From contig CANAAV010000019.1 of the NCBI GenBank assembly GCA_947346365.1, positions 1-49,729 of the forward strand: a DNA stretch of 49,729 nucleotides. Reading direction: 5' to 3'. Shown one piece after another: positions 13,822-46,282 of the stretch. Origin of the DNA: an uncultured Flavonifractor sp. Its GTDB lineage: Bacteria; Bacillota; Clostridia; Oscillospirales; Oscillospiraceae. The position numbers and the translations under genes are program-made. The notes beneath the pieces were generated by a model, which ran no database searches, was not told the origin of the DNA, and saw only the letters and a list, made by a program, of their open reading frames with translations. Each line of letters starts with the position of its first letter. Position 1 is the stretch's first letter.

Positions 13822-14137
13822 TATGGAACGCTATAAGATTGCGGTCCTGGGGGACAAGGACAGCGTGCTGGGGTTTAAGGCTCTGGGGCTGGACGTGTTC
13901 CCCGCCGAGACCGTGGAAGAAGCCCGCAAGACCCTGCACGCCCTGGCCAAGCAGGACTACGCGGTGGTCTATCTCACCGAGCAGTACGCCGCGGGCATGC
14001 AGGCCGAAGTGGAGCGCTATAAGGACGAGCTGACCCCCGCCGTGATTTTGATTCCCGGCAAGGAGGGGTCGCTGGGCATTGGCATGGCAAACGTCAAGAG
14101 CGCCGTGGAGCGCGCGGTAGGCGCAGACATCCTGTGA
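13814..14137 (+). CDS. ntpF: V-type ATPase subunit F
   Basis: A 107-residue regulatory rotor subunit. It begins with the family's KIAVLGDKDSVLGFKALGL (GD near the N-terminus), continues with YAVVYLTEQYA and ends with an amphipathic helix after the segment VILIPGKEGSLGIGMANV. It binds subunit D in the central shaft. ATG 13814 overlaps the ntpC stop by frame shift. GTG 13805 and ATG 13823 are also possible starts, and 13805 has the better-spaced AAAGG. Confidence 0.88.
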   Translation: MSNMERYKIAVLGDKDSVLGFKALGLDVFPAETVEEARKTLHALAKQDYAVVYLTEQYAAGMQAEVERYKDELTPAVILIPGKEGSLGIGMANVKSAVERAVGADIL

Positions 14138-14187
14138 CGTTCCTTTAGAAAGCGCGCTCTCTTGTGCAGACGGCTTCTGGTCCAATC

Positions 14188-14206
14188 TCCGCCGCTGTGC
14201 GGCGGA
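14188..14206 (+). other. Stem-loop between ntpF and ntpA
   Basis: A perfect 8-bp GC stem (14188-14195 with 14199-14206) with a TGT loop sits in the only sizeable gap of the V-ATPase operon (132 bases). No T-run follows, so it is more likely an mRNA processing or stability element than a terminator. Confidence 0.4.
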
Positions 14207-14269
14207 AGCTCTGCCAGGCACTTGCAGAGATCTTTGTATAAATCAAACCTGAAAGAAGGTTAGATAAAC

Positions 14270-17430: not shown

Positions 17431-17443
17431 GGGGGTGGGGTAA

Positions 17444-32690: not shown

Positions 32691-34013
32691 TCAGGAACAT
32701 TCATTCAGAATGCCCGCCTGACGGGCCTGGTCTTTCAGCTGCTCCCGGAACTGGGGGTGGGCCAGACCGATCATCGCACGCACCCGGTCCCGCATAGACA
32801 GGGGCTTGAGGTTGACGCAGCCATACTCGGTGGCGATATACTGCACGTCGGAGCGTGGAGTTGTGACGGCGGTGCCCGCCGGAAAAGCGGATACAATCCG
32901 GCTGAGAGGCGGCCGGCCCGGTTTTTCCAGGGTGGAGGTCAGGGCGAAAAAGGATTTTCCGCCCTTGGCCAGCTGGGCGCCGCGTACAAAATCCAGCTGC
33001 CCGCCGGTACCGCTCTGCTGGCGGAAGCCCAAGGAGTCGGCGGCGACCTGGCCGAACAGGTCGATAGACATGGCGGTGTTGATGGAGATCATGTTTTCGT
33101 TCTGGGCAATCAGCGCCGGGTCGTTGGTTTTGGAAAAGGGCAGGAAGTAGACGCTGGAATTGTGGTCCAGGAATTGATAGAGCTCCTCAGAACCAAAGGC
33201 GAAGCTGGCGACGCTTTTCCCGGGGAAAAGGGTTTTCCTCCGGTTTGTGACTACGCCGTCCTTCATCAGGCGCATCATGACGTCGCTCATCAGCTCCGAG
33301 TGAATGCCCAAGTCATTTTTTTCCCGCAGGCCATAGCCTACCGCGGAGGCAAGACCGCCCAGCCCCAGCTGAATGGTGGCCCCGTCTGGAATCAGCGCGA
33401 CGATGTGCCGGGAGATGGCCTGCACGCGCGCGTCGGCGGGCAGCTCCTGCGCAGTCTCCAGGCTGTCGTCGGCCTCTACAATAAAGTCGGCCTGGGAACA
33501 GTGAATGAGATGGTCCTCGCCGTATACGTAGGGGACGCTGCGGTTTACCTGGAGAATTACGGTGTCGGCCTGATCTGCGATCTGGCGGTGTAGCGCCACG
33601 CCGCTGGCGCCAAAGCTCATATAGCCGTTGGAATCGCAGGGGGAGACCTCCAGAAACGCCACGTTGGGCCGGGCGGTCTGGGCGCACCAAATGCCAATTT
33701 GGCTCAGGTGGACGGAGGTAAATTCACCGCGCTCCGGGCCTAGGCCCTGCCGTTCGGAGATTCCCATAAAATAAGAGCAAAAATCAAAATGGCCCTGGGC
33801 GTCCTGCGCAAAAAAACGCGCGCTCCGGCGGTACTGGGAGCAGGAGATCACTACGTTTTCCAGCTCCTGCTCCCGCTGCTCCAAGGCCTGACAGAGCTTG
33901 TAAGCGATGCTGGAGCATGTGCCCACATAAATACGGTCGCCGCTTTTGACCTGCTGTACCGCCTGCTGGGCGGTGCATTTTTTTTGCTCATATTCCGCCT
34001 GGAAGTCTGACAT
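32691..34013 (-). CDS. Acetyl-CoA hydrolase/transferase family CoA-transferase
   Basis: A 440-residue class I CoA-transferase resembling 4-hydroxybutyrate or butyrate:acetate CoA-transferases. The catalytic Glu is E240 in GIHSELMSD. The C-terminal domain has SGTGGQLDFVRGAQLAKGGK and the segments VTTPRSDVQYIATEYG and VRAMIGLAHPQFREQL. It would move CoA between acetyl-CoA and an organic acid. It is the last gene of the minus-strand catabolic operon, 39 bases after the aldolase with its own GGGAGG site. In context it may activate the pathway substrate or a product using the acetyl-CoA made by the dehydrogenase. The acid partner is unknown. Confidence 0.85.
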   Translation of the reverse strand: MSDFQAEYEQKKCTAQQAVQQVKSGDRIYVGTCSSIAYKLCQALEQREQELENVVISCSQYRRSARFFAQDAQGHFDFCSYFMGISERQGLGPERGEFTSVHLSQIGIWCAQTARPNVAFLEVSPCDSNGYMSFGASGVALHRQIADQADTVILQVNRSVPYVYGEDHLIHCSQADFIVEADDSLETAQELPADARVQAISRHIVALIPDGATIQLGLGGLASAVGYGLREKNDLGIHSELMSDVMMRLMKDGVVTNRRKTLFPGKSVASFAFGSEELYQFLDHNSSVYFLPFSKTNDPALIAQNENMISINTAMSIDLFGQVAADSLGFRQQSGTGGQLDFVRGAQLAKGGKSFFALTSTLEKPGRPPLSRIVSAFPAGTAVTTPRSDVQYIATEYGCVNLKPLSMRDRVRAMIGLAHPQFREQLKDQARQAGILNECS

Positions 34014-34052
34014 AGCGGCAAATTCCTCCCTTCTTATTCCGTTTTTCCATGC

Positions 34053-35084
34053 CTACTGTCCCTCCAGATCCTGTTTTCCTTCCGCCATAAAGGCCTGGCA
34101 GATGTCCAGAATCATGTCCTCCTGACCGCCGATAGCCCCCCGACGGCCCAGCTCTTCAAAAATGCGCTGGTAAGGGATACCATATTTTTGGGAGGCCTCC
34201 AGGGTATTCAAATAAAAGCTGGAATAGATGCCGACCTTGCCGAGGGTGCACGATTCGCTGGTGACCTGCAAAGGCCGCTGCATAATGGGGACCACGTACT
34301 TGTCCGCCGCCTCGCACAGGGCGTAAAAGTCGCACCCGGTGTCAACGTGCATTTTTTCCAGCACGGCCGCAATGGCCTGAGTACACCCGTTGCCGGACCC
34401 GGCTCCCAGCCCGTTCAGCGCTCCGTCCACATAATCCGCCCCCGCCTCGACTGCGGCGACGACGTTTCCGACGCCGAGCCCAAGGTTGTTATGGGTATGC
34501 ACGCCGATGGGGAGCCCGGTGGCCTGCTTCAGCGCCACGACGCGGTCCCGGATATCCTGGGGCGTAAAGGCGCCGGCGGAGTCGGCGAAATAAATAACGT
34601 CCGCGCCGTAGCTTTTCGCCTTCATCGCGTTCTCTACCAGCTCGTCAATGCTGATGAGATGGCACATCATCAAAAAACAGATGACGTCCAGCCCCAATTC
34701 CTTGCCGCCCTGGATGTGGGTTTCGCCCAGGTCGGCCTCTGAGCAGTGGACGGCCACCCGCACGCCGTCCAGCCCGTAGTGCTCCTTTGCGTAGCGCATA
34801 TCCTTCATGGTGGCGATGCCCGGGCAGAACAGGTCATAGAGCTTGGTGTGGTGAAGCTGGGCCCGCGCGGCGGTCAAAAGGGCCTCGTCGCTGTATTTTC
34901 CAAAGCCGTACTGCAGCAGGGAGCCGTTCAAACCGGCCCCGTGGCCAACCTCCGCGGCATATACGCCCGCCCGCTCCAGGCAGGCGCAGATATTGGATAC
35001 AGTCTCCGGGCTCTGGGTGTGATGCAGGGCGTGGCTACCGTCGCGCATGGTGGTGTCGATGATCCTGACTTTTTGACTCATCAT
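34053..35084 (-). CDS. mhpE: 4-hydroxy-2-oxovalerate aldolase
   Basis: A 343-residue class II aldolase (MhpE/DmpG/BphI type) that splits 4-hydroxy-2-oxovalerate into pyruvate and acetaldehyde. Active-site residues are in DTTMRDGSHA (R14, D15, H18), and the metal-binding HTH is at 196-198 in GVHTHNNLGLGVGN. The C-terminal DmpG communication domain, which delivers acetaldehyde to the dehydrogenase, is present. Its ATG overlaps the TGA of the dehydrogenase gene, consistent with the channelling complex these two proteins form in aerobes. Confidence 0.93.
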   Translation of the reverse strand: MMSQKVRIIDTTMRDGSHALHHTQSPETVSNICACLERAGVYAAEVGHGAGLNGSLLQYGFGKYSDEALLTAARAQLHHTKLYDLFCPGIATMKDMRYAKEHYGLDGVRVAVHCSEADLGETHIQGGKELGLDVICFLMMCHLISIDELVENAMKAKSYGADVIYFADSAGAFTPQDIRDRVVALKQATGLPIGVHTHNNLGLGVGNVVAAVEAGADYVDGALNGLGAGSGNGCTQAIAAVLEKMHVDTGCDFYALCEAADKYVVPIMQRPLQVTSESCTLGKVGIYSSFYLNTLEASQKYGIPYQRIFEELGRRGAIGGQEDMILDICQAFMAEGKQDLEGQ

Positions 35085-35965
35085 AGTTGGGCGCCTCCTA
35101 ATACTTTTTGTGCGTAGAGCTCTGCCATGCGGACGCCCGACGCCGTCTCCATGTCCAGATTTCCCGCGTATTTGGGCAGGAAATCTCCCGCGCCCGTTAC
35201 GGTGATGATGGTGGTGATGATTCCATGATTCACCATGGGGGGCAGGGTGAGGGCATATCCGGGGATGTACGCCTGAACCCGTGCGACCATAGCCCGGACG
35301 CTTTTGTCTACCGCTTCAATGTCAAAGGGGCCCTCCGGAATGGCCATGATGGTGTTGCGCATGTGGCATTCCGGCTTGCAGGGATTGATGACGGAGAACA
35401 CACGGGCGGATTTTGCCCCGCCCAGGCGGCACAGGGCGTTCTGCGTGGTATAGGTGAACTCGTCGATGTTTTTGCGGGTGGCCGGGCCGTCGCTCTTGCT
35501 GGCAGTTTGGGCGACCACCTCCGCATAGGAGACGGGGATCACCTGCGTAATGGCGTGGAGCGCCGCCGTCGAGGCCTGGCCGACGCAGGTAATCATGTTG
35601 ACGTTCCTGCTCTGAAGGCCCTCTTCCGGGTTGACCACTGGGGAGACGCTGACGCCTACCGCGGCTGGCGTCAGGTCTACTGCGAACTTGCCCAGCTTTT
35701 CCAGGAGCGGGGCGTGGACCTGCTTATGGAGGGAGGCCATTGTGGCGTCAAAGACGACGTCGGCGGTTTCGGGATGCCGCTCCAAATAGCCGATCCCCTC
35801 GGTGGAGGCAATAAAGCCCAGATTCCGGGCCCGCTTGAGACCCTCTGACTCGACGACGCCCAGCATGGCGGACATCTCCAGCCAATCGCTGCGCATGACC
35901 TTAAACATCAGGTCTGTTCCAATGTTGCCGGGACCGATAATAGCTACTTTCAATTTTTTCTTCAC
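35081..35965 (-). CDS. mhpF: Acetaldehyde dehydrogenase (acetylating)
   Basis: A 294-residue MhpF/DmpF/BphJ-type enzyme that oxidises acetaldehyde to acetyl-CoA with NAD+ and CoA. The Rossmann motif is IIGPGNIGTDLM. The catalytic Cys is C127 in MITCVGQAS (aerobic relatives usually read TCGGQAT). NPCKPECHMRNTI and MVNHGIITTII are family segments. GGAAGGG precedes the start. It is the first gene of the minus-strand catabolic operon, behind a repeat motif it shares with the adjacent IclR gene. Confidence 0.93.
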   Translation of the reverse strand: MKKKLKVAIIGPGNIGTDLMFKVMRSDWLEMSAMLGVVESEGLKRARNLGFIASTEGIGYLERHPETADVVFDATMASLHKQVHAPLLEKLGKFAVDLTPAAVGVSVSPVVNPEEGLQSRNVNMITCVGQASTAALHAITQVIPVSYAEVVAQTASKSDGPATRKNIDEFTYTTQNALCRLGGAKSARVFSVINPCKPECHMRNTIMAIPEGPFDIEAVDKSVRAMVARVQAYIPGYALTLPPMVNHGIITTIITVTGAGDFLPKYAGNLDMETASGVRMAELYAQKVLGGAQL

Positions 35966-36010
35966 GAGAAATCCCTTCCTTTCTGTGGCGGCACACGCCA
36001 GATGTATGAC

Positions 36011-36036
36011 AATATCAGACTAAGTTCTTAAAATTG
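36011..36036. promoter_or_regulatory. Shared operator/promoter motif, copy A
   Basis: This 26-base stretch matches 21 of 26 positions with 37007-37032, in the same orientation; the common core is ACTAAGTT. It lies 46 bases before mhpF. On the minus strand GATATTGT could hold the -10. It probably marks a common regulatory site of mhpF and the IclR gene. Confidence 0.5.
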
Positions 36037-36042
36037 AGTAAA

Positions 36043-36070
36043 GGAAAAAGCATCTTAGGATGCTTTTTCC
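36043..36070 (-). terminator. Terminator downstream of the first IclR gene
   Basis: A perfect 12-bp stem (36043-36054 with 36059-36070) with a 4-nt loop. On the minus strand its 3' arm is T-rich and runs into CCTTTACTC. It separates the IclR transcript from the mhpF promoter. Confidence 0.65.
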
Positions 36071-36193
36071 CAGATTGCCGAAAAAAGCCTTGCAGAGTGC
36101 CCGCCGGCAGGCGGGGGTGACGCCCGGCGAAGGCAGCAACGCCGCCATGCGGAAATCCGGCCCAGGCCGAATGCAAGCTCCCGGCTTGGCAGA

Positions 36194-36982
36194 CTACGAA
36201 TCCCGGCGGGGGCTGCCGCCGAGCTGAGCGGAGATGTCCCTGGCCGTATTCCGTACGGCTTTGGTCAGCGCGGGAATGTCGTGTTGCGCGGCCCTGCCCG
36301 CAGGCAGAGAAAGGCTGATGGCGGCCACGCACGCGCCATGGGCGTCGGTGACGGGGGCGGAGATGCAGAATAAGCCCTCCTCCCGCTCCTCGCGGTCATA
36401 AGCGTACCCGTCTGTGCGGACCTGCTCCAGCTGACAGAGCAGCGCCTGGGGGGACTGCACCGTGGCCCGGGTGTAGGGGGTAAATTCCATGGTCTCCAGA
36501 AGAGGCAGCAGCTGCTCCCGGGGAAGGGCGGCCAGCAGCACCTTGCCCAGGGCGGAGCAATAGGCGGGCATATTAGCCCCGATCTGCGTCACCATGCGGA
36601 TACTCTTGGAGCTTTCCGCCTTTGCCACATAGGTGATCTCGCTGCCGGAGAGGACCGCCATGTGGACGGTTTCCCCGTATTGGGTGCACAGGCGGTCCAG
36701 GTGAGGCTGGGCGTCAAGCACTAGGTCCATATGACTCTGTACGGCCAAGCCGTATTGCAGCATCCGGATTCCCAGGGAGTAGCGCCCCGTGTCCTGATCC
36801 TGCCGGACGAGACCGAGCGCCTCCAGCGAGGAGATGAGGCTGAAAGCGGTGCTCTTATTGAGGTCCAGATCCCGGCTGATGGAGGTCAGCCGGGCCCCGC
36901 GGCCGGCCTCGGCCAGGTAATCCAAAATGGAGACCGCCCGCTGGAGAGACTGTATGACGCGTTTTCCACCTAAAGGCTCCAC
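36194..36982 (-). CDS. IclR family transcriptional regulator (first)
   Basis: About 262 residues with an N-terminal winged helix (IQSLQRAVSILDYLAE, then LTSISRDLDLNKSTAFSLISSLEALGLVRQ) and a C-terminal effector domain (NMPAYCSALGKVLLAALP, ISAPVTDAHGACVAAISLSLPAG). IclR proteins often control aromatic or small-acid catabolism. The start is uncertain: GTG 36982 is used here, with TTG 36997 and GTG 36994 as alternatives. None has a clear ribosome-binding site, and the shared motif lies only 25 bases upstream, so the transcript may have almost no leader. It probably controls the neighbouring operon. Confidence 0.85.
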   Translation of the reverse strand: MEPLGGKRVIQSLQRAVSILDYLAEAGRGARLTSISRDLDLNKSTAFSLISSLEALGLVRQDQDTGRYSLGIRMLQYGLAVQSHMDLVLDAQPHLDRLCTQYGETVHMAVLSGSEITYVAKAESSKSIRMVTQIGANMPAYCSALGKVLLAALPREQLLPLLETMEFTPYTRATVQSPQALLCQLEQVRTDGYAYDREEREEGLFCISAPVTDAHGACVAAISLSLPAGRAAQHDIPALTKAVRNTARDISAQLGGSPRRDS

Positions 36983-37006
36983 ATAGATCAGCACCAATCG
37001 TTTGAT

Positions 37007-37032
37007 AATATCGCACTAAGTTTTTGAATTTG
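37007..37032. promoter_or_regulatory. Shared operator/promoter motif, copy B
   Basis: Partner of the motif at 36011-36036 with 21 of 26 identical bases. On the minus strand it precedes TATTAT (37010-37005), a possible -10 with no good -35. It lies directly in front of the IclR gene, as expected for autoregulation. Confidence 0.5.
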
Positions 37033-37120
37033 GGCATAAAATATGCTACCAGCAGATATGCTGATTTTCAAGGGGCAAAATTTACAAAAAAGAAATCAAA
37101 AATTTGTGCACCATGTCAAA

Positions 37121-37144
37121 CGGCGCCGGAGTTCTCCGGCGCCG
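37121..37144 (-). terminator. Hairpin after the second IclR gene
   Basis: A perfect 10-bp stem (37121-37130 with 37135-37144) with a 4-nt loop, seven bases past the stop of the second IclR gene. On the minus strand the tail is only TTTG. The plus-strand side reads GCTGTTTTAT. Confidence 0.5.
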
Positions 37145-37150
37145 GCTGTT

Positions 37151-37954
37151 TTATAAAAAGGGCTGGCTGTTTGCTCCCATGCTGCGGGAGAGCCTGGTGG
37201 CGAAGGCGAGAATTTCTCTGAGGTACGCCTGCTTGTTGACCTCAAAAGCGTCCTTGTTGGAGCCCACGCTGACGGCCGCGATGAGCTTTTGCTGGGGGCC
37301 AAAGACCGGCGCGGCGATGAAAAAGGTATTCATAATGTACTCGCCGCGGTTGACACAGTAGCCGTCCTTGCGGATATCCCGCAGCTGCTGGGCCAGATAA
37401 GCCGTTTCCTTTACCGTGCTGGCCGTATACTGTGCCAGGCTGGCTTCCTCATACTGCTGGAAAAACTCCATCTGAAATTCCTGAGTGGCGAAGGCGAGCA
37501 ATACCTTGCCGATAGCGGTCGCGTGCAGGGGGAACCCGGTTCCGCTGTTGATGTAGGGATCCGTCACCGCGACGGAACCCAGATAGACGCCCCGGGCTTT
37601 ATCCGCCAGGACGCCCAGATAGATTTCACTGGTGGGAATCGCCTTGAGCAGCATATTGGCATTTTGATAGAACAAGTGGGTCAGCGGATTGTTGTTGCAG
37701 AACATAGAACCGAATTCAAACATCCGGCTGGTGAGGATATACCGGCCGTTTTGCTGCTTGCGGACATATTTGCGCTCTTCCAGCGTGCGCATCAGCTTAT
37801 ATGCGGTCACTTTGTTGATTTTGAGCTTCCGGCTGATCTCTGGCACGCTTTCCGCCACGCCGTGGACGGCCATATGCTCCAAAATCAGCAAAGCCCGCTC
37901 CAGGGAGCCATTGGTATCCACCGTTTTTTTCTGTCCGTCCTGATTTGCCATCAT
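37151..37954 (-). CDS. IclR family transcriptional regulator (second)
   Basis: A 267-residue IclR protein only distantly like its neighbour. The winged helix reads SLERALLILEHMAV and VPEISRKLKINKVTAYKLMRTLEERKYV. The effector domain contains GFPLHATAIGKVLLAFA and FIAAPVFGPQQKLIAAVSVG. ATG 37954 is eight bases after AAAGG and downstream of a strong promoter; longer frames would begin upstream of that promoter. It is divergent from the hydratase gene, the usual place for the regulator of that operon. Confidence 0.88.
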   Translation of the reverse strand: MMANQDGQKKTVDTNGSLERALLILEHMAVHGVAESVPEISRKLKINKVTAYKLMRTLEERKYVRKQQNGRYILTSRMFEFGSMFCNNNPLTHLFYQNANMLLKAIPTSEIYLGVLADKARGVYLGSVAVTDPYINSGTGFPLHATAIGKVLLAFATQEFQMEFFQQYEEASLAQYTASTVKETAYLAQQLRDIRKDGYCVNRGEYIMNTFFIAAPVFGPQQKLIAAVSVGSNKDAFEVNKQAYLREILAFATRLSRSMGANSQPFL

Positions 37955-38026
37955 ATCCAAAACCTTTGATCTCCCGCTGAGGCGTCGGGGCTGCCGGATG
38001 GCGGGAAGAGTAGAGTTGCCCTTATT

Positions 38027-38055
38027 TTTATAGCATATTCCATAAAAAATGTCAA
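38027..38055 (-). promoter_or_regulatory. Strong promoter of the second IclR gene
   Basis: On the minus strand, a perfect TTGACA (38055-38050), a 17-base spacer and TATAAA (38032-38027) preceded by TGC. Confidence 0.8.
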
Positions 38056-38090
38056 TTCTTCTGAGCACGGATGTATATTTTGTATATTTC

Positions 38091-38110
38091 TAGTTTATAT
38101 TTCTAAACTA
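38091..38110. promoter_or_regulatory. Inverted-repeat operator candidate between divergent genes
   Basis: A perfect inverted repeat TAGTTTA-N6-TAAACTA in the 221-base divergent gap between the second IclR gene and the hydratase operon. The size and symmetry fit a dimeric regulator. It lies upstream of the hydratase promoter region, a position typical for IclR activators. Confidence 0.5.
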
Positions 38111-38124
38111 TAGATAAATTATTA

Positions 38125-38151
38125 TTGACGAATAGAGCCGAATCCTATATT
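38125..38151 (+). promoter_or_regulatory. Possible weak promoter of the hydratase operon
   Basis: TTGACG (38125-38130) and TATATT (38146-38151) with a short 15-base spacer. The suboptimal spacing would suit an activator-dependent promoter, with the inverted repeat 15 bases upstream. Confidence 0.4.
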
Positions 38152-38175
38152 TTCGAAGAGAGGAGGTCGATACCC

Positions 38176-38967
38176 ATGACGATGACGATGGAAGAAATCC
38201 AAGAGCAAGGCCGGCTTCATTATCAGTCGATTCAAGCGGCTGTACCGGTTACGCCGCCCAGCCATCTCTACCCCAAAATGGACGAGGAGGACGCCTATGC
38301 CATTGCGGGAGAAGTGGTCCGGCGCTATTTGGAGGACGGGTACACGGTTGCCGGAAAGAAGATCGGGCTCACCAGCAGCGCTATGCGCAGGCTGGGCGGA
38401 ATCTATGAGCCGGACTATGGCGTCATTTTCAACGAGTGCTGTTATGCCAACGAGGGCGAGGTGCCCGCGGCGGGGTTTGTCCAGCCCGCGGTGGAGGCCG
38501 AGCTGGGCTTCCGCCTGAAGGCGGATCTGACCGGCAGAGAGATTACGCCGGAGGATGTGCTGCGGGCCACGGAATATGTGGTGCCCTGTCTGGAGCTGGT
38601 GGATGTGCGCCAGCGCCTGGACGTGCCGCGCAAGGTGTTTGACAGCATTGCGGACAACGCCTCTTTTGGCGCTTTCGTAGTGGGAGACACTCCGGTGCGT
38701 CCCTATGCGATTGACTTTGGCTTGGTGGGCTATGTATATGAGCACAATAACCGTCAGGCGGAGGTATCCTGCGGCGCGGCGGTGCTGGACCATCCGGTGA
38801 AAGCGGTGGCCTGGCTGGCCAACCGGTTTAGAGAGATCGGGCAGCCGCTGCGGGCCGGAGAATTCATCCTTTCCGGCTCCGCCATAGCGATGGAGACGGC
38901 TGCGGCCGGGGACAATTTCCGGTGCCGGTATGGGAGATTGGGTGAGGTTTCGGTCAATTTTGTCTGA
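38176..38967 (+). CDS. 2-oxopent-4-enoate hydratase (MhpD/XylJ type)
   Basis: A 263-residue member of the fumarylacetoacetase-fold hydratase/decarboxylase family, expected to hydrate 2-hydroxypenta-2,4-dienoate to 4-hydroxy-2-oxovalerate, the aldolase substrate. Signatures are AGKKIGLTSSAMRRLGGIYEPDYGV, the metal-binding VEAELGF, CLELVDVRQRLD and DHPVKAVAWLANRF. AGGAGG lies nine bases before ATG 38176; two more in-frame ATGs follow within 12 bases. It is the first gene of the plus-strand catabolic operon. Family members differ little in sequence, so hydratase rather than decarboxylase activity is inferred from context. Confidence 0.82.
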   Translation: MTMTMEEIQEQGRLHYQSIQAAVPVTPPSHLYPKMDEEDAYAIAGEVVRRYLEDGYTVAGKKIGLTSSAMRRLGGIYEPDYGVIFNECCYANEGEVPAAGFVQPAVEAELGFRLKADLTGREITPEDVLRATEYVVPCLELVDVRQRLDVPRKVFDSIADNASFGAFVVGDTPVRPYAIDFGLVGYVYEHNNRQAEVSCGAAVLDHPVKAVAWLANRFREIGQPLRAGEFILSGSAIAMETAAAGDNFRCRYGRLGEVSVNFV

Positions 38968-38981
38968 GGGGAGAATGCCAG

Positions 38982-39806
38982 ATGTCTGTTGATAAAAAAA
39001 TACTGGAGGAATTGGCCCATATTTCCCTGGAAGGGGAGCGCGGCAATTACGAGATAGAACCGTTTTACACCAAGTATCCCGAGCTGGACCGGAACGACGG
39101 CTATCAGGCCCAAAAGCTCAGGCTGGATATGCAGCTCTCAGAAGGCCAGCGGCGGGTGGGCTTTAAGCTGGGGGGCACCAGCCTGGCCAAACGGAAGCAG
39201 GTGGCCCTTGAGCTGACCAGCGGCGCTTACATCCCGCCGGACGCGCCGACGGTGGGGCAACTGATGGACTATATGCGGCTGGAGGAGGACGCCGAGCTGG
39301 TTTTGTCGGAGTATATCCACCCGAAGCTGGAGGCGGAGCTGGCCTTTGTGCTGGACCGGGAGCTCTTTGGCCCCAACGTTCACGCGCCTGATGTGATGAT
39401 GGCGACGGCCTATGTCACCCCGGCCTTTGAGATCATTGACAGCCGTTTCCGGGATTTCAAAATGGGCGGGAAGGCGGATGCGATTATTGATAATGTCTCT
39501 TCCCGGGGCTTCAAGCTGGGCCGGGTGCGGAAAAGTCCCTTTGATGTGGACATGACCGGCATGGGGGTGCGCACCAGCTTTAACGGCGCGTTTACCGGCT
39601 ACAGCGCTGCGGGCGCGGTGATGGGACATCCGGCCCGGGCGGTGGCCTCGCTGTGCAGGACCATGTATGAGCAGTGGAACGCCGGCCTTCCGGCGGGGTC
39701 TATTATTTTGACGGGCGCAATCTGCCCCTCTCACGTTTTGACGCGGGGGGACCGGGTTATTTCCGACTTTGAAGGGCTGGGCTCTATTTGGGTCAATGTG
39801 GTGTGA
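38982..39806 (+). CDS. 4-oxalocrotonate decarboxylase/hydratase family protein (XylI type)
   Basis: A 274-residue second member of the same fold, 14 bases after the first. It shows KLGGTSLAKRKQ, LEAELAFVLDRELFG, AYVTPAFEIIDSRFRDF and GHPARAVASLCRTM. In meta-cleavage operons such tandem pairs are the decarboxylase (2-oxo-3-hexenedioate to 2-hydroxypentadienoate) and the hydratase, acting as a complex. This longer protein fits the decarboxylase. An HpaH-like hydratase for a seven-carbon intermediate is the main alternative. Confidence 0.8.
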   Translation: MSVDKKILEELAHISLEGERGNYEIEPFYTKYPELDRNDGYQAQKLRLDMQLSEGQRRVGFKLGGTSLAKRKQVALELTSGAYIPPDAPTVGQLMDYMRLEEDAELVLSEYIHPKLEAELAFVLDRELFGPNVHAPDVMMATAYVTPAFEIIDSRFRDFKMGGKADAIIDNVSSRGFKLGRVRKSPFDVDMTGMGVRTSFNGAFTGYSAAGAVMGHPARAVASLCRTMYEQWNAGLPAGSIILTGAICPSHVLTRGDRVISDFEGLGSIWVNVV

Positions 39807-39895
39807 TTCTGTTTAGGGAGGAGGTCGCAGAGAACGGCACGGCAGCCACATAGGCGTGATAGAATAATTAATCAAAAGAAAAGGAGAGAAAACGA

Positions 39896-41041
39896 ATGAT
39901 CACAAACTCATGGCTTATTTGGGGTATTTTGGCCGCCGCTACAGGGTTTTCCATCTGGGCGTCCAACAATACGAAATGGGGCAAGTTCCTGGGCTATGTC
40001 AACGTGGCCATCATCATCGGCGCGATTATCTCCAACGTGGGCATACTCCCCGTATCCAGCGGGGAATATGGCACCATTATGAATTCGTTTGTACCGATCG
40101 GCATCGTATGTATGCTGTTCATGGCGGACCTGACCAAGCTGGGCAAGTGCGGGCCCAAGATGATTATTTGTATGCTGGTCGCCAGCCTGGTGTTTTTGCT
40201 GGTCGCAATAATCGGCGCCATCCTGTTCAATATGGGCGGGGAGACCTGGAAGGTGGCGGCTGTGGCGGCCTCCTACTTCACCGGCAACCTCCAGACTGCG
40301 GCCGGCACCGCCTCCTCCGTGGAGCTTTCCAGCGAAATGATGGCGTTTTTCAATGCGGCGGCGGCAGTGCCCTGGGTGATCTACAGCCTGGGCTGCTACA
40401 TGGTCGGACGCTCCCCCATCCCCAAGTTCCTGCGCTCGTATACGGACAGCGACTCCGGCATTACCCTCAGTGAGCAGGAGCAGGCGGAGGCGCGGGCGCA
40501 CCTGGACCGGAAAGAGGTCCTGCTGAATATCAACGAGACCGCCATTGTCATCGGCGCGGCGGTGCTGATTGTGGGCGTAGGCCAGTGGCTGGGCGCCGTC
40601 ACCAATTTCTACTCGATTGTCTTCTATGCCACGTTCGGCATTCTGGTGGCAAACTTTACCCCCATCCGGAAATTTGTCATTAACGACTATCTGGCCACCT
40701 TCATCTTTACGATGTACATGGTAACCTGCGGCATCGGCGCCCATTACAGCACCTTTTCCAGGCTGCCCTGGCAGATGTTTGCCTATGTCATCTTTATCTA
40801 TGTGGTCTCTATCGTGGTGTTTGTTGTACTGCTCAAGGTGCTGCGTCTGCCGTGGGAGATGGGTCTTTTGGCCCACATGGCCTGCGTGGGCGGCCCCATC
40901 GCCACTCCGCCTTTGGCTAAGAGCTACAACTGGACCGATCTGGTCCTGCCCGGCATTATCATTGCGGTTTTGGGACAGGTTTTTGGCGCCTATATCGGTA
41001 TCGGCGCCGGCAGCATCGTGCGTACCATCCTTGGCGGCTGA
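39896..41041 (+). CDS. DUF819 family membrane protein, putative substrate transporter
   Basis: A 381-residue polytopic protein with about ten to twelve membrane helices, matching the DUF819 (YjcL-like) family. Recognisable parts are AAVAASYFTGNLQTAAGTASSVE and GLLAHMACVGGPIATPPLAKSYNW, each with glycine-rich turns typical of secondary transporters. No family member has a firmly known substrate that I can name. It sits between the decarboxylase-like gene and the amidohydrolase with a good AAGGAG site, so uptake of the pathway substrate is the simplest role. This is inference from position. Confidence 0.75.
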   Translation: MITNSWLIWGILAAATGFSIWASNNTKWGKFLGYVNVAIIIGAIISNVGILPVSSGEYGTIMNSFVPIGIVCMLFMADLTKLGKCGPKMIICMLVASLVFLLVAIIGAILFNMGGETWKVAAVAASYFTGNLQTAAGTASSVELSSEMMAFFNAAAAVPWVIYSLGCYMVGRSPIPKFLRSYTDSDSGITLSEQEQAEARAHLDRKEVLLNINETAIVIGAAVLIVGVGQWLGAVTNFYSIVFYATFGILVANFTPIRKFVINDYLATFIFTMYMVTCGIGAHYSTFSRLPWQMFAYVIFIYVVSIVVFVVLLKVLRLPWEMGLLAHMACVGGPIATPPLAKSYNWTDLVLPGIIIAVLGQVFGAYIGIGAGSIVRTILGG

Positions 41042-41061
41042 GAGCCGCCGGAACGCCGCTG

Positions 41062-41129
41062 CCGGCGGGGCGGGGTGCTCCCTCCGCCCCGTCCCGCCGG
41101 GGTTGCGGCTTAAAAGCCTGCGCGCAGGC
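41062..41129 (+). other. Long GC hairpin and palindrome between transporter and amidohydrolase
   Basis: A 14-bp stem with one G-T pair (41062-41075 with 41087-41100) is followed by the perfect 14-bp palindrome GCCTGCGCGCAGGC (41116-41129). No T-run follows. In this 232-base gap it could limit read-through or define an mRNA end, lowering expression of the downstream genes. No separate promoter was found. Confidence 0.45.
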
Positions 41130-41273
41130 CGTTGCTTGAACCGGGTCAAAGCGCCCGAAGGGAAGCCTTCCGCCGCCCATCGTTCCACCTTCCTGCCGGG
41201 CTGTGCGTCCCGTCCATTTTCAAACAAAATCTGACAGATAAGAGCTGTTTATTAAAAAGAAAGGACGATTTTT

Positions 41274-42434
41274 ATGCCGTTTGCTGTTTTTTGTTATGAT
41301 CTGCTGATTAAAAATGGGACCGTTGTGGATCCCGCCAACGGTATCCACAAAAAAATGGACATTGGTATTTATGAGCCCAATATTGCGGATGTGTTTGAGC
41401 CGGGCACTATGCCCGGCCGTGTCTGCGCCCGGAAGGTCATCGACGCGGAAGGGCTGCTTGTTGTGCCCGGCTTTGTGGAAGGACATGGGCATGTGCTCCC
41501 CTTGGCCTTTGCCTATCCGATTGAAGAGCTGTGGAAGCGCGGCATCACAGCCATCTGCGATATGGGCAGCGTGTCTATCACGTCCTTCAACCGCTGCCGG
41601 CGGGACATCATCAACAGCGCTCCGCTGACCGTCAACGCCGCGCTGTGCCTGAGCACGCTGATGGAGTGCGACCGCTATTATGACATTAACGCCAACGTAG
41701 AGGCCGAGGTAGACAAGTATGTCATCAAGGATGTGTTTGAAACCCACCCGGATGTGCTCGTGGGCATCAAGCTCTTTATCGGCCATGCCAGCACGCCGGG
41801 GGCGGAAAAGACGATTGAAGTAATGAAAAAGGCGCGGGAGGTCTGCGACTTTGTGGGCTGTCCCATGGTGGTCCATGTGGCGGCGCCGGATATCCCGCTG
41901 CCTGAATTTATCGGCTATTTTAACGCGGGGGACAATTTCACCCATACGTACAACAAGGGTAACATTATCGACCCCAAAACCGGCGGCGTCTACCGGGAGG
42001 CGTGGGAGGCGCGCAAACGGGGAGTCATTTTCGATTCCGCCAGAGGCGGGCGCAACTGGAGCGCCGAGGTGGCCAAGGTGGCCTTCGCGGAGGGCTTTAC
42101 CCCCGACATTATCTCCTCCGATTTGACGTGCCTGAGCAACGATCCCAGAACATCCCGCCTGGATGTGCACATGTCCGAGTGCATGGCTATGGGCATGAGC
42201 TTTGAGGATGTGCTTTACCACGCCACCAATGTGCCCGCCAGCTGCATGAAAGGGGTTCACCCCGGCGTAAAACGCGGCCTACAGGCCAATTTGACCATTA
42301 TTGACCTGCAAAAAGGGCCCCATATCTTTAACGACGCCTACGGCGTGGAATACGAGGGAGAGTATAAAATCGTGCCCAAGGCCACTGTCGTCAGGGGCAA
42401 GGTGATGTACAACGAGCTGAAAACCGACTATTGA
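41274..42434 (+). CDS. Amidohydrolase-superfamily hydrolase with binuclear metal site
   Basis: A 386-residue cyclic amidohydrolase-like protein. The N-terminal beta-sandwich starts DLLIKNGTVVDPANGI. The metal site looks complete: H71 and H73 (GHGH in place of the usual DxHxH), K166 (VGIKLFIGHAS, the likely carboxylated Lys), H201, H224 and D283 (SSDLTC). It resembles the metallo-dependent deacetylase/dihydroorotase-like group. Relatives open cyclic amides, lactones or enamides. In this operon, hydrolytic ring opening that feeds the tautomerases is the most attractive role, but the substrate is unknown. AAAGGA lies eight bases before the ATG. Confidence 0.82.
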   Translation: MPFAVFCYDLLIKNGTVVDPANGIHKKMDIGIYEPNIADVFEPGTMPGRVCARKVIDAEGLLVVPGFVEGHGHVLPLAFAYPIEELWKRGITAICDMGSVSITSFNRCRRDIINSAPLTVNAALCLSTLMECDRYYDINANVEAEVDKYVIKDVFETHPDVLVGIKLFIGHASTPGAEKTIEVMKKAREVCDFVGCPMVVHVAAPDIPLPEFIGYFNAGDNFTHTYNKGNIIDPKTGGVYREAWEARKRGVIFDSARGGRNWSAEVAKVAFAEGFTPDIISSDLTCLSNDPRTSRLDVHMSECMAMGMSFEDVLYHATNVPASCMKGVHPGVKRGLQANLTIIDLQKGPHIFNDAYGVEYEGEYKIVPKATVVRGKVMYNELKTDY

Positions 42435-42484
42435 CCGGAGGAGAAGCGCCTAAAAGGCGCGGCGAGTAATTGGAGGTAAGAAAC

Positions 42485-42877
42485 ATGCCTTTTGTCACAT
42501 TGTATCTGCGCAGCGGCTGCGACGACAGCGCGGTGGAGACCTGTATGCGGGAGATCTCTCAGGCCGGCGCGGAAATTATGGAGAACACGCTGCTGCGCAT
42601 GGTCCGGGTCAGCGTGTATGATATTCCCGGCAACCGGATTTATGAGGGTGGAAAGCTGGTCGGCGAGGACGACCTGGCGCCTACGGTTGTGTTTGACATC
42701 GGTCCCGGCCGCAGCGACGAGGCGAAAACCCGGTTTATGGACCGGATTGCCGACATCCTGCACGAAAACCTGGGGGTTGACAAGCGGCGGGTTCGGGCCT
42801 ACGTGCGGGATAACACCCGGCCGGAAAACTTCTGCATTGACGGAAAGCAAAAAGATTTTTCCAAGAAGGTGAAATAG
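42485..42877 (+). CDS. Tautomerase-superfamily protein, long form
   Basis: A 130-residue protein beginning Met-Pro, so removal of Met would expose the catalytic Pro1 of the 4-oxalocrotonate tautomerase superfamily. Its length fits fused-type members (cis-CaaD or malonate semialdehyde decarboxylase size) rather than the short hexameric form. Basic residues in MREI and MVRVSVYDIPGNRIYEGG may bind the carboxylate. GGAGGT precedes the ATG. It lies directly before the short tautomerase gene; the pair could form a mixed oligomer or handle two isomerisations. Confidence 0.7.
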   Translation: MPFVTLYLRSGCDDSAVETCMREISQAGAEIMENTLLRMVRVSVYDIPGNRIYEGGKLVGEDDLAPTVVFDIGPGRSDEAKTRFMDRIADILHENLGVDKRRVRAYVRDNTRPENFCIDGKQKDFSKKVK

Positions 42878-42878
42878 T

Positions 42879-43085
42879 ATGCCAATTATGTGTACCATAC
42901 AGATGCCGGAGGGACGCACCCGGCAGGAAATTCAGAAGGTGATGGCCGACGTGTCAGAGGCGCTGATGCGGGATCTCCAGACGGGAGAGCGGGAGGTGCG
43001 CGTGTCTGTGGTGGAGCTGCCGCGGGTCCGCTTCATGGCGGGGGGCGTTTTGGCCCGGGATATGCCGGCTTTTCAAAAGGAGTAA
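42879..43085 (+). CDS. 4-oxalocrotonate tautomerase family protein
   Basis: A 68-residue short tautomerase starting Met-Pro-Ile, with the expected Pro1, a helix (TRQEIQKVMADVSEALMRDL) and a second strand with VRVSVVELPRVRFMAGG. The classic enzyme converts 2-hydroxymuconate to 2-oxo-3-hexenedioate, exactly the substrate of the decarboxylase-like protein in this operon. It starts two bases after the long tautomerase. Confidence 0.82.
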   Translation: MPIMCTIQMPEGRTRQEIQKVMADVSEALMRDLQTGEREVRVSVVELPRVRFMAGGVLARDMPAFQKE

Positions 43086-43142
43086 CCGTACCGCAGTCTG
43101 GAGCGCAGAGAACTCCGGCAAAAACTTTGACAGGAGGTTGCC

Positions 43143-44297
43143 ATGATTTCAAAATATGTCCAGCCCTGTCCAATTACCTTTGGCAGGGGAGCCCTTGGGC
43201 AGCTGCCCGCCCTGCTGGAGGAGGCGGGGGTCTGTAGGCCGCTGATCATCACCGACCGGGGGGTGGCCGCCGCGGGACTTTTGGCGCGGACAGAGCGGCT
43301 GCTGGCGGCCGGCGGCGTCAGCTATACATCCTATGACGCCATGCTGCCGGACACACCGGATTACTGCTGCACCCAGGCGGCGCAGCAGGCGGCGGAATTT
43401 GGGGCGGACGGCGTGATCGGCCTGGGCGGCGGGAGCTGCATGGACGCGGCCAAGGCGGTTTCGGTCCTGTGCGCAAACCGGGAGCAGACCATTACCCAGC
43501 TGATTACGGGCACGCCCTTCCGGCAGAAGCCCCTGCCTTCGATTTTGATTCCGACCACCGCCGGCACCGGGTCAGAGAGCACGATTTTTGCAGTTGTCTC
43601 CTGTAGCGAGGACGGGAGGAAACGCTCTTTGTTTACCTATGCCTCCATGGGAGTGCTGGACCCGGAGCTGACGGTGGACCTTCCCCCGGAGGTTACCGCC
43701 TATACGGGGATGGACGCGCTGGCGCACGCAGTTGAGGCGTATACCAGCGTACGGCCCAACCCCCAGTCGGATCTGCTGAGTCTGGACGCAATCCGGCGCA
43801 TTGCGGCGTGGCTGCCGGCGGCCTGCCGGGAGGGGCAGAACATGCAGGCCCGGGAGAACCTCTGCCTGGCCAGCAATTTTGCCGGGATTGCCTTTAACAA
43901 CTCCGCCACCCATATCGGCCACGCCATGGCCCACGCCATGGGCGCGATTCTTCACCTTTCCCACGGAATCGCCTGCGCCTGGGACGTGCCGGAGGTGCTG
44001 TACCTGATGGCACGCTACCTGCCGGAGAAAGCGCGCCAGATCGGCTGCGCCCTGGGCATTGTGCCCGCCCAGGAGCTGAGCGGGGAGGAGCTGGGAGAAG
44101 TCCTGCGCAGACACGTGCACCGCTTCATGAAGGAGATCGGAATCCCCACCTGCGCAGCGCTTGGAATTGACGAGGAAAAGCTGGCGTCCTGCGGCGATTA
44201 TGCGGTAAGCGAAAAGCTGCGGGGACTGTGCGGCGCGCCGGTTACGAACGGTGAGATCCGCCAGGCGCTGGTCAACTGCGCCAGGAACTACCGGTAA
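43143..44297 (+). CDS. Iron-containing alcohol dehydrogenase
   Basis: A 384-residue group III alcohol dehydrogenase. The nucleotide site is GLGGGSCMDAAKAV, and IPTTAGTGSE follows. Iron ligands are probably D191, H195 (GMDALAHAVEAY), H260 and H274. In this pathway it could reduce acetaldehyde to ethanol to dispose of reducing equivalents, or act on a hydroxy or oxo intermediate. Family members also include maleylacetate reductases and 4-hydroxybutyrate dehydrogenases, so the substrate is open. It follows the tautomerase by 57 bases and precedes the flavin reductase by 14. Confidence 0.88.
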   Translation: MISKYVQPCPITFGRGALGQLPALLEEAGVCRPLIITDRGVAAAGLLARTERLLAAGGVSYTSYDAMLPDTPDYCCTQAAQQAAEFGADGVIGLGGGSCMDAAKAVSVLCANREQTITQLITGTPFRQKPLPSILIPTTAGTGSESTIFAVVSCSEDGRKRSLFTYASMGVLDPELTVDLPPEVTAYTGMDALAHAVEAYTSVRPNPQSDLLSLDAIRRIAAWLPAACREGQNMQARENLCLASNFAGIAFNNSATHIGHAMAHAMGAILHLSHGIACAWDVPEVLYLMARYLPEKARQIGCALGIVPAQELSGEELGEVLRRHVHRFMKEIGIPTCAALGIDEEKLASCGDYAVSEKLRGLCGAPVTNGEIRQALVNCARNYR

Positions 44298-44311
44298 AGG
44301 AGAGAAGCCAT

Positions 44312-46282
44312 ATGTACGACAGCTTGTTTTCCCCCTTAAAAATCGGTTCCCTTACCATCCGCAACCGGGTAATCATGGCGGCGATGGGCTGTGGGACTGC
44401 CAACCGGGACGGCACAGTCTCTGAGCGGCAGATTGCCTACTACACACAGCGGGCCCAGGGCGGTGCCGGCCTGATTATCACCGGCGTGACCCGGGTGGAT
44501 GATGAGACCGGTGCGATGGATGCCAATCAAATATCGGTGTCTAAGGATGAGACGATTCCCTCGATCCAGCGCCTGGTCCGCGCCGTTCATGCCCAGGGCG
44601 CCGCGATTTTTCTCCAGCTTCACCATCCGGGCAACCAGACCAGCCCGCGGGCCCTGGGCGGACAGCCCACCGTGGGCCCCAGCGGGATTAAGTGCCAGTT
44701 GTCCAACGCGCCCTGCCGCGCTATGACCCTGGAGGAGATACGCCGCCTGGTGGAATCCTTCGCCCAGGGGGCGCTCCGGGCGCAGAAGGCCGGGGCGGAC
44801 GGCGTGGAGCTGCACTGCGCCCACGGCTATCTGCTGGAGCAGTTTTTGTCCCCGTATACCAACCGGAGGACGGACGAGTACGGCGGCTGTATGGAAAACC
44901 GGGCCAGAATTGTGGAGGAGATCATCCGGGCGATCCGGGAAAAGGTGGGCAGGGATTATCCCGTTACCATGCGGATCTCGGTGGATGAATTTTTGGAGAC
45001 TTCCGTCTTTCCCCATGACCGCCCTGGCTTAAAGCTGGAGGAAGGAGTGGCGCTGTGCCGTTATCTGGCGCCCTTCGGCCTGGATGGGGTGAACGTCTCG
45101 GCGGGCACCTATGAGACGATGAATACGGCCTGGGAACCGACTTCCTACGAGGAGGGCTGGAAGGTCTATCTGGCGGAGGCGGTGAAACAGGCGGTGGATG
45201 TGCCTGTTTTTTGCGTGGGTTCCATCCGCAACCCAGACTATGCCGAGCGGGTGCTGGAGGAGGGCCGGGCGGATGCGGTGTGCATTGCCCGCGGCCAGCT
45301 GGCCGACCCGGAGTGGTGCCGCAAGGCGGCCGCCGGCCGCAAAGAGGAGATACGGCGGTGCATCTCCTGTCTGTACTGTATGCAGGAGCTGACCACCCAC
45401 GGGCATGAGGGGCGGCCCTTCGGCTGCGCCATCAACGCCCGTGCGGCCCACGAGATCGACTACCCCGTACCGGCAGCGGACGGCGGCGGGCGCAAGGTAG
45501 TAATCGTCGGCGGCGGCCCGGCGGGGATGGAAGCGGCGCGGGTGCTGTCCCTGCGGGGATTCCATGTGGTTTTGCTGGAGGAAGGGCCGCGGCTGGGCGG
45601 ACAGCTCCTGCTGGCGGCAAAGCCGCCGCGAAAAGAGAAGCTCCTCTGGCTGGTGGAGTATTTTGAGACGGTTCTGCCCAGGCAGGGGGTGGAGATCCGC
45701 CTGAATACCAGGGGAGATGCGGCGATGATTGAGGCGCAGCGGCCCTATGCCGTGTTTGACGCCACCGGTGCCGCGCCGGTGCGCCCCGGCGGTATTCCCG
45801 GCATCGAAGGAGAGCATGTGGCCCTGTACACCGAGGTGCTCAAGGGTGAAGTCGTGCTGAAAGACAAGCAGGTGGCGCTGATCGGTTCGGGAATGTCCGG
45901 CCTGGAGACGGCGGCCCTGCTGGCGCAGTCGGGAAACCGCCTGGACATTGTGGAGATGGCGCCGAGCATAGGCCCGGGGGTGAGCTTCCAGCTCCGGACT
46001 GACGCGCAGGCCCACTTAAAGGGCTACCCGGTGCGCTATTACCCGGGGCATAAGCTGGTGGGCATTTCGAACGCCGGGGTTGCGCTGGAGCATGAAGGGG
46101 AAGCGGTGACCCTCCCGGCGGACTGGGTGGTTCTGGCGCTGGGGGTGCGCGGCGACGGAGCCCTGACCGCGGCGCTGAAAAAACGGCTGGATCGGGTGAC
46201 GGCGCTGGGCGACGCGCAGCATCCCGGACGGATTGCCGAGGCCGTTCACTCCGGATTTGAGGCGGCATACCGGTTGGAATAA
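44312..46282 (+). CDS. Old Yellow Enzyme-type flavin/4Fe-4S/FAD enoate reductase
   Basis: A 656-residue three-domain reductase like 2,4-dienoyl-CoA reductase, enoate reductase and BaiCD/BaiH. The FMN barrel (1-330) begins YDSLFSPLKIGSLTIRNRV. The 4Fe-4S cysteines are probably C350, C353, C356 and C372. The FAD/NAD domain starts KVVIVGGGPAGMEAARVL. Such enzymes reduce activated C=C bonds in anaerobes. It is the last gene of the operon and could reduce an unsaturated ring or a diene acid before or beside ring opening. A perfect 18-bp hairpin follows. Confidence 0.9.
   Translation: MYDSLFSPLKIGSLTIRNRVIMAAMGCGTANRDGTVSERQIAYYTQRAQGGAGLIITGVTRVDDETGAMDANQISVSKDETIPSIQRLVRAVHAQGAAIFLQLHHPGNQTSPRALGGQPTVGPSGIKCQLSNAPCRAMTLEEIRRLVESFAQGALRAQKAGADGVELHCAHGYLLEQFLSPYTNRRTDEYGGCMENRARIVEEIIRAIREKVGRDYPVTMRISVDEFLETSVFPHDRPGLKLEEGVALCRYLAPFGLDGVNVSAGTYETMNTAWEPTSYEEGWKVYLAEAVKQAVDVPVFCVGSIRNPDYAERVLEEGRADAVCIARGQLADPEWCRKAAAGRKEEIRRCISCLYCMQELTTHGHEGRPFGCAINARAAHEIDYPVPAADGGGRKVVIVGGGPAGMEAARVLSLRGFHVVLLEEGPRLGGQLLLAAKPPRKEKLLWLVEYFETVLPRQGVEIRLNTRGDAAMIEAQRPYAVFDATGAAPVRPGGIPGIEGEHVALYTEVLKGEVVLKDKQVALIGSGMSGLETAALLAQSGNRLDIVEMAPSIGPGVSFQLRTDAQAHLKGYPVRYYPGHKLVGISNAGVALEHEGEAVTLPADWVVLALGVRGDGALTAALKKRLDRVTALGDAQHPGRIAEAVHSGFEAAYRLE

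Follow-up and report, generated by a model that had tools for sequence, protein, structure and literature searches.

How might a lower meta-cleavage pathway be supplied with substrate in an organism that, we infer, is an anaerobe? The question is raised by a cluster of 13 genes in two divergent arms at positions 32691-46282 of contig CANAAV010000019.1, from the assembly GCA_947346365.1 of an uncultured Flavonifractor sp. The contig, 49,729 bases long and part of a genome of 2.59 Mb, is referred to as the window. A preliminary description, made from the sequence alone, read the cluster as a complete XylH-I-J-K-Q type route with no oxygenase, for which it suggested a hydrolytic entry; its candidate substrates were 2-pyrone-6-carboxylate, giving 2-hydroxymuconate, and 6-hydroxypicolinate, giving 2-aminomuconate. 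The enzymes that it named are all present in this interval, and the scores of two of them, DmpG and DmpF, exceed curated cut-offs. To its list can be added an iron-containing alcohol dehydrogenase (43143-44297) and a pair of IclR regulators. The reading favoured here, and considered somewhat more likely than not, is that of a catabolic cluster, regulated and independent of oxygen, whose substrate is an anionic and probably cyclic and unsaturated compound (a lactone, lactam or similar). The finding is firmer than the preliminary description could tell, as the core of the cluster recurs in other genomes without a detected oxygenase.

A rare five-gene core

The plus arm consists of the genes for FAH1, FAH2, a DUF819 protein, AHA, a tandem tautomerase, a single-domain tautomerase, the iron-containing alcohol dehydrogenase and an OYE-type flavoprotein; IclR2, IclR1, DmpF, DmpG and a CoA-transferase are encoded on the minus arm. 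FAH1 is an HpaH-like hydratase, FAH2 resembles 4-oxalocrotonate decarboxylase (4-OD) and AHA is a hydrolase of the amidohydrolase/deacetylase family. Together with the tandem tautomerase (Taut2x) and the single-domain tautomerase of the 4-oxalocrotonate tautomerase (4-OT) type (Taut1), these form a five-gene core that is shared with four other genomes, hereafter the sisters. The preliminary description had suggested looking for the same gene set elsewhere, and these four genomes are the outcome; because the core recurs in them, the arrangement is not a product of chance.

Matches to FAH1 (E<=1e-30) were found in seven of the 394 genomes of the order, that of the window included. Two members of the window's family, G119 and G206, carry FAH1-FAH2-AHA-Taut2x-Taut1 in the same order. 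When AHA was run against 84,980 species genomes, two further carriers came to light, a metagenome-assembled genome (MAG) labelled Enterocloster (locus L019) and RUI412, a MAG labelled Lachnospiraceae (locus L020), each with all five genes. FAH2 is separated from AHA by an FMN-reductase-family gene in the former and by an aldolase gene and, as judged by eye, an AraC-like gene in the latter. Identity between the window and the four sisters is 65-67% for AHA, 59-62% for the tandem tautomerase, 44-54% for the single tautomerase, 48-63% for FAH1 and 43-63% for FAH2. By FAH1 and FAH2 the window groups with the Enterocloster MAG (63% identity), whereas its AHA and tautomerases stand apart from those of the sisters.

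The core unit is rare. An AHA orthologue was found in the window's own genome alone, both among 391 genomes of the class (E<=1e-90) and among 398 of the phylum (E<=1e-60), in three of 330 genomes of the family (its own included) and in one of 20 genomes of the genus of G119. At a looser cut-off 3/60 genomes gave matches, those besides the window's own at 28-32%. Plasmid records contained no match to AHA; 263 of them matched DmpF, all at less than 60% identity. A search of the open-licence literature found no paper describing the cluster or candidate substrates, nor one on the PDB entry nearest to AHA, which is weak evidence, as most subscription journals lay outside that search.

Oxygenase searches and dioxygenase-bearing clusters

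The catechol-2,3-dioxygenase model TIGR03211 matched none of the five core genomes, two of which are 99% complete; the same search matched three of three genomes of another genus in the order. The HpaD model TIGR02295 likewise matched none of the five. The LigB family (PF02900) gave one match among them, a 462-residue protein of the window's genome (C21:30663) whose neighbour resembles a radical-SAM protein and which we take to belong to an AmmeMemoRadiSam system. No ring-cleaving oxygenase is found in the cluster itself, as the preliminary description had stated; genome-wide only these three models were run, with intradiol, Rieske and flavin oxygenases outside the search. The lack of catechol-2,3-dioxygenase and HpaD matches in all five core genomes supports a route that is fed by a hydrolase and is independent of oxygen.

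A useful contrast is provided by catechol meta-cleavage clusters from three genomes of the same order but another family: L015 (6130-11798; G166), L017 (4667-10373; G097) and L016 (3568-7487; G260). All three contain a catechol-2,3-dioxygenase (approximately 349 bits, cut-off 320), a protein that by eye is ferredoxin-like, DmpF, DmpG and an FAH hydratase. L015 and L017 also encode an alpha/beta-hydrolase-like protein and an IclR regulator and adjoin genes resembling a his operon; L016 lies on a short contig. The FAH enzyme of L015 scores higher with the dmpE model than with that for HpaH (257.6 versus 230.2 bits), as does that of L018. Neither AHA nor the tautomerases occur in the stretches examined of L015 and L017, which resemble the usual version of this pathway. 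It is a separate observation that MAGs of a presumably anaerobic order carry an extradiol dioxygenase at all.

FAH1 and FAH2 and the identity of the lower pathway

FAH1 (38176-38967, plus strand) probably starts at 38176, on the basis of codon score and orthologues. Its best model is that for HpaH (TIGR02312) in all five clusters, at 227-249 bits and below the cut-off of 351.5 in each. The HpaH and dmpE (TIGR03220, 2-oxopent-4-enoate hydratase) models give 226.8 versus 222.1 bits in the window, where the dmpE cut-off is 408.8, and 236.5 versus 216.3, 239.9 versus 216.2, 248.9 versus 211.2 and 235.1 versus 213.8 in the four sisters. The nearest solved chain to the window protein is the HpaH/HpcG structure 2EB4 (171 bits; the next scores 146). 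The window protein has a PRKVFD loop of HpaH type. An arginine in this loop is common to 2EB4 and all five FAH1 proteins and is absent from 8IH6_A and from the enzymes of L015, L017 and L018; it may bind the distal carboxylate of the substrate.

FAH2 (38982-39806, plus strand) is decarboxylase-like in all five clusters. The window protein has TIGR03218 as its best model (185.6 bits, cut-off 350.55) and NahK as its nearest solved chains, and it shares the motif IDSR[FY]xxFK with NahK, the same motif being present in 5D2I/8IH6_F.

Two known systems were compared. The lower catechol pathway (XylHIJKQ/DmpEFGHI) is like the window in having 4-OT, a 4-OD-like enzyme, a hydratase, DmpG and DmpF. It is unlike it in that no dioxygenase, 2-hydroxymuconate semialdehyde dehydrogenase or hydrolase is found among the 13 genes, the window hydratase scores HpaH before dmpE and segments of DmpF and DmpG are altered. 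The lower homoprotocatechuate (Hpa/Hpc) pathway shares with the clusters an HpaH-like hydratase (5/5), an HpaI-class aldolase (four sisters), an aldehyde dehydrogenase close to SucD (three sisters) and the combination of two isomerase-type genes with a decarboxylase-like gene. However, the core genomes have no HpaD match, the dehydrogenase is acylating, AHA and the OYE-type protein are added and the window uses DmpFG. The isomerases are moreover of 4-OT type and the decarboxylase of XylI type, in place of what we take to be HpaF and HpaG.

The XylH-I-J-K-Q route through 2-hydroxymuconate is not supported in the form first given: the hydratase is HpaH-like in 5/5 clusters, the sister aldolases are HpaI-class in 4/4, the sister dehydrogenases SucD-like in 3/4 and the window DmpFG altered. 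An HpaH-like variant acting on a seven-carbon acid, which the preliminary description had offered as an alternative, is favoured by these features, although the window itself still has DmpFG. The pathway label should shift from XylHIJKQ towards an HpaH-like, hydrolysis-fed variant.

Aldolases and aldehyde dehydrogenases

In place of DmpG all four sisters have an aldolase of the HpcH/HpaI class. HpaI is the best NCBIfam model for the three that were scored, each below the cut-off of 368.8, and the fourth, from G206 (locus L014), matches HpcH/HpaI-class structures; the sister aldolases also score well with GarL and rhamnonate-aldolase models. An acylating aldehyde dehydrogenase is present in three of the four. 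For the two searched in the PDB the nearest entry is Clostridium kluyveri SucD (8CEI, 455 and 452 bits; the next entries give 322 and 334), although no SucD model is among the NCBIfam models listed for these proteins. In SucD, mesaconyl-C1-CoA is bound with its distal carboxyl coordinated by Lys70 and Ser243 (PMC10249356). Lys66 and Lys70 are kept in all three sister enzymes. Because HpaI-class aldolases occur together with SucD-like dehydrogenases that keep both lysines, the sequences favour pyruvate and an anionic aldehyde, most simply succinate semialdehyde, as the likely products in the sisters. Past the core and the SucD-like gene, RUI412 (L020, 13275-16993) also carries acyl-CoA dehydrogenase, family III CoA-transferase, MaoC-type and enoyl-CoA-hydratase genes.

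Among the five core clusters only the window has DmpFG. DmpG (34053-35084, minus strand) is a 4-hydroxy-2-oxoacid aldolase by TIGR03217 (382 bits, cut-off 286) and DmpF (35081-35965, minus strand) an acylating aldehyde dehydrogenase by TIGR03215 (343.5 bits, cut-off 282). A residue map to 1NVM shows that DmpG keeps the Arg, Asp, His and Tyr of the presumed catalytic set and two further His, presumably the metal ligands. Alignments were made with homologues from 29 of 39 match places in other genomes of a phylum scan and from the three dioxygenase-cluster loci, one locus having no DmpG. The window DmpF has NPCKPECHM in place of the segment NPA[ED]PP[IML]xM, present in 32/32 homologues, and CVGQ in place of C[GA]GQ. 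In DmpG the segment L[LIV][LIV]PG, present in 31/31, reads LFCPG, the Gly of GF[LM]M[ML] is replaced by Cys and F[LM][LI]H becomes FYLN. These segments presumably lie at or near the aldehyde pocket of the BphI/BphJ pair; the open-licence literature gave no paper against which the BphI/BphJ pocket position could be checked. In a control over columns where nearly all other sequences agree, the window departs 24 times in DmpF and 29 times in DmpG, whereas no other member departs more than 9 and 13 times, respectively. That the aldehyde is anionic (succinate semialdehyde), and that the window DmpFG has been retuned to accept it or a different product other than acetaldehyde, is possible though on balance doubtful.

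DmpF itself is found in 39 of 373 genomes of the phylum, that of the window included, the other 38 being of the same phylum. A FAH1-like neighbour stands beside DmpF-DmpG at 26 of 29 loci (L053-L081), an arrangement that is thus not rare in the phylum.

AHA, the tautomerases and the proposed entry to the pathway

AHA (41274-42434, plus strand) is proposed as the ring-opening or entry enzyme. Its closest NCBIfam models include the amidohydrolase/deacetylase family, with PRK12394/PRK09237 at approximately 226 bits; curated cut-offs lie well above its scores (226 versus 442 bits for PRK12394, 146 versus 432 for EF_0837). No LigI model is among the 25 families shown of the 31 that AHA matched. The window protein differs at 52 of the 266 positions that are invariant in the other four, where leaving out each other member in turn gives 2-15, and it has lost both a PGLRF segment beside the HxH motif and an AETQGEIPRY segment. 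As the window is the divergent member of the set, its substrate and aldehyde may differ from those of the sisters. An AlphaFold model of AHA built from three sequences had a mean pLDDT of 46 and was not used for a fold search.

AHA adjoins both tautomerases in all five clusters, for which reason its product probably is the tautomerase substrate. The tandem, or fused, tautomerase (42485-42877, plus strand), whose start is probably at 42485 and not 42470, has Pro-1 in its N-terminal half and 4-OT-like segments in the second half. The single-domain tautomerase of the window (42879-43085, plus strand) has NCBIfam scores below the cut-offs and contains the Pro, Arg, Arg, Phe set of 4-OT (equivalents of Pro-1, Arg-11, Arg-39 and Phe-50 in what we take to be the usual numbering); in the four sister proteins Arg-11 is replaced by Lys and Phe-50 by Tyr.

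A flavin reductase is encoded in or beside every cluster, of OYE type in four and as a flavin-reductase-domain protein in RUI412, which makes a reductive step before hydrolysis plausible. The OYE-type proteins of G119, G206 and Enterocloster are 65-76% identical to one another. That of the window (44312-46282, plus strand; BaiCD-like, NF041087 482.7 bits, cut-off 825) is the only PF00724 match in its genome. Of the hydrolytic, oxygen-free entry that had been proposed for the XylHIJKQ pathway, the entry is thus upheld by the constancy of AHA and of a flavin reductase in 5/5 and by the absence of catechol-2,3-dioxygenase and HpaD matches, and the XylHIJKQ label is not. Transporters vary among the clusters, being DUF819, CitMHS/MatC-like or, by eye, TctABC-like; those of CitMHS and Tct type point to uptake of a carboxylate. 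The DUF819 membrane protein of the window (39896-41041, plus strand; PF05684, above the Pfam cut-off) is the probable substrate transporter.

Other entries were considered. For a picolinate-type entry through a molybdenum hydroxylase, the family has two matches in the window's genome, which lie beside SsnA/YgfK-like and separate XDH-subunit-like genes, presumptive names taken from the sequences, and no match in the RUI412 genome (1.9 Mb, of unstated completeness). This entry was set aside; some members may do without a molybdenum-hydroxylase step. SsnA-, YgfK- and selenium-type xanthine dehydrogenase-like genes stand in a row in the window's genome (G000:C8, L049, 4427-11367), a locus resembling one for purine catabolism. 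Dipicolinate, mimosine-derived pyridones, hydroxyquinol-type rings and bile-pigment pyrroles were set aside on carbon count.

Proposed route and alternatives

In the favoured reading the substrate would be imported by the DUF819 protein, optionally reduced by the OYE-type flavoprotein and hydrolysed by AHA to a 2-hydroxy-diene or 2-oxo-ene di- or tricarboxylate. The 4-OT-type enzymes would tautomerize this product, FAH2 decarboxylate it and FAH1 add water. Retro-aldol cleavage, by DmpG in the window and by the HpaI-class aldolase in the four sisters, would then yield pyruvate and an aldehyde, which DmpF in the window, or the SucD-like enzyme in three sisters, would convert to a CoA thioester; transfer of CoA by the CoA-transferase would conserve the thioester energy. 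Each of these reactions and their order, together with induction of the cluster and its use under anaerobic conditions, is presumed from the gene content and residue patterns. The most specific version, in which an amidohydrolase and a flavin reductase perform a rare oxygen-independent opening of an aromatic or heteroaromatic ring to a 5-carboxymethyl-2-hydroxymuconate-type acid that enters a meta-type lower pathway, with the window DmpF-DmpG rebuilt for an anionic aldehyde such as succinate semialdehyde in place of acetaldehyde, is unlikely.

Partial precedents exist for such an entry. In the fermentation of nicotinate by the anaerobe Eubacterium barkeri the ring is reduced and then opened hydrolytically by an enamidase of the amidohydrolase superfamily; the later steps, through 2-formylglutarate and 2-methyleneglutarate, are not known to use FAH, 4-OT or DmpFG enzymes. 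The likeness to the cluster is one of concept, in the shared idea of reduction and hydrolytic ring opening. In the 4,5-cleavage of protocatechuate, the hydrolase LigI, also of the amidohydrolase superfamily, opens 2-pyrone dicarboxylate, after which 4-oxalomesaconate tautomerase acts. Here the resemblance is again in the hydrolytic ring opening, and also in the tautomerase that acts next; the later enzymes differ.

Several observations weigh against the favoured reading. No analysis assigned a starting compound. The core proteins score below equivalog cut-offs, the HpaH/dmpE margin of the window FAH1 is small (227 versus 222 bits) and the window's genome is 85.8% complete. The AHA and tautomerases of the window are outliers of the set, so inferences based on the sisters may not hold for it. 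Its OYE-type protein is only 33-34% identical to those of the sisters. Among the sisters, the G206 aldolase is nearest to a 2-dehydro-3-deoxygalactarate aldolase of GarL type (1DXE, 157 bits; HpaI-type entries give 130-150). The best NCBIfam models of the sister dehydrogenases are AdhE and the sulfoacetaldehyde dehydrogenase SauS (approximately 420 bits, below cut-offs), and SucD position 243 aligns with Thr in L020, the same LCTC stretch being present in all three. The window DmpF and DmpG are also the most divergent of their set (mean identity 0.50 and 0.44; the next 0.59 and 0.55), so part of the 24 and 29 changes is plain divergence. As DmpFG normally makes acetaldehyde, and no HpaI-like gene was found on the window contig nor a SucD-like gene in its cluster, a C5 route is possible in the window.

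The alternatives can be judged against this background. A 2-pyrone or 2-pyridone carboxylate might be hydrolysed to 2-hydroxymuconate, or its amino form, which the window would degrade to pyruvate and acetaldehyde by a genuine Xyl/Dmp C6 to C5 route; the sisters would act on a carboxymethyl homologue. The curated scores of DmpG and DmpF, the 4-OD-like FAH2 and the 4-OT residues would suit this scheme, and the loss of PGLRF and AETQGEIPRY, invariant in the other four AHA proteins, fits a different, perhaps smaller, substrate. It nevertheless falls on the unlikely side, a little below a C7-type route with a retuned DmpFG, since the window FAH1 retains a loop of HpaH type and has HpaH as its best-scoring model, if by a small margin, and DmpF and DmpG depart from all compared homologues at conserved segments. 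It is improbable that the cluster serves a non-aromatic sugar-acid or other keto-acid pathway, in which the FAH, tautomerase and HpaI/DmpG enzymes have aliphatic 2-oxo acids as their substrates and the role of AHA is to take off an acyl or carbamoyl group. The deacetylase-related models of AHA, the good scores of HpaI-class aldolases with GarL and rhamnonate-aldolase models and the GarL-type structure nearest to the G206 aldolase are consistent with it, but 4-OT enzymes with Pro/Arg/Arg/Phe-type residues, together with 4-OD-like and HpaH-like enzymes, match muconate-type chemistry. Finally, the pathway could be fed by a dioxygenase whose gene is absent from the incomplete assembly or belongs to a family outside the search, with AHA and the OYE-type protein unrelated to it. 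Genome completeness leaves room for this, and G166, G097 and G260 demonstrate a catechol-2,3-dioxygenase beside DmpFG and a hydratase within the order. It is very improbable, however, given that neither dioxygenase model matched any core genome, the two nearly complete ones included, that AHA and both tautomerases are adjacent in every cluster and that the L015 and L017 stretches have neither, with a dmpE-type hydratase in L015.

Other features of the locus

NCBIfam equivalog cut-offs are exceeded by DmpG and DmpF only. The remaining NCBIfam-matched enzymes are of the right family and score below theirs; for this reason the exact reactions of the FAH pair, the tautomerases, AHA, the OYE-type protein and the CoA-transferase are given as predictions. 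The CoA-transferase (32691-34013, minus strand) is of the acetyl-CoA hydrolase/transferase family (PF13336, PF02550), with the butyryl-CoA:acetate CoA-transferase TIGR03948 as its nearest model (314 bits, cut-off 674.8), and the iron-containing alcohol dehydrogenase (plus strand) matches PF00465. IclR regulator 1 (36194-36997, minus strand) matches IclR-type models below their cut-offs; IclR regulator 2 (37151-37954, minus strand) is 41% identical to the IclR protein of the Enterocloster cluster. The gap between IclR1 and DmpF contains a perfect 12-nucleotide inverted repeat (36043-36070), a putative operator or terminator, and a 13-nucleotide inverted repeat (85%; 38085-38116) between the divergent arms, adjoining the IclR gene, is a putative operator. 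Elsewhere in the window, a run of genes at 9425-18157 resembles, by eye, a V/A-type ATPase operon.

Implications

Lower pathways of the meta type are usually read as a sign that a ring has been cleaved with the help of oxygen. If a conserved core combines such enzymes with a hydrolase and a reductase, this lower half could evidently be fed without oxygen, which would caution against taking meta-type lower-pathway genes as signs of aerobic metabolism. The core supplies five concrete enzymes for assay. If the DmpFG of the window has indeed changed its aldehyde, it would provide a natural test of how a channelling complex sets its specificity.

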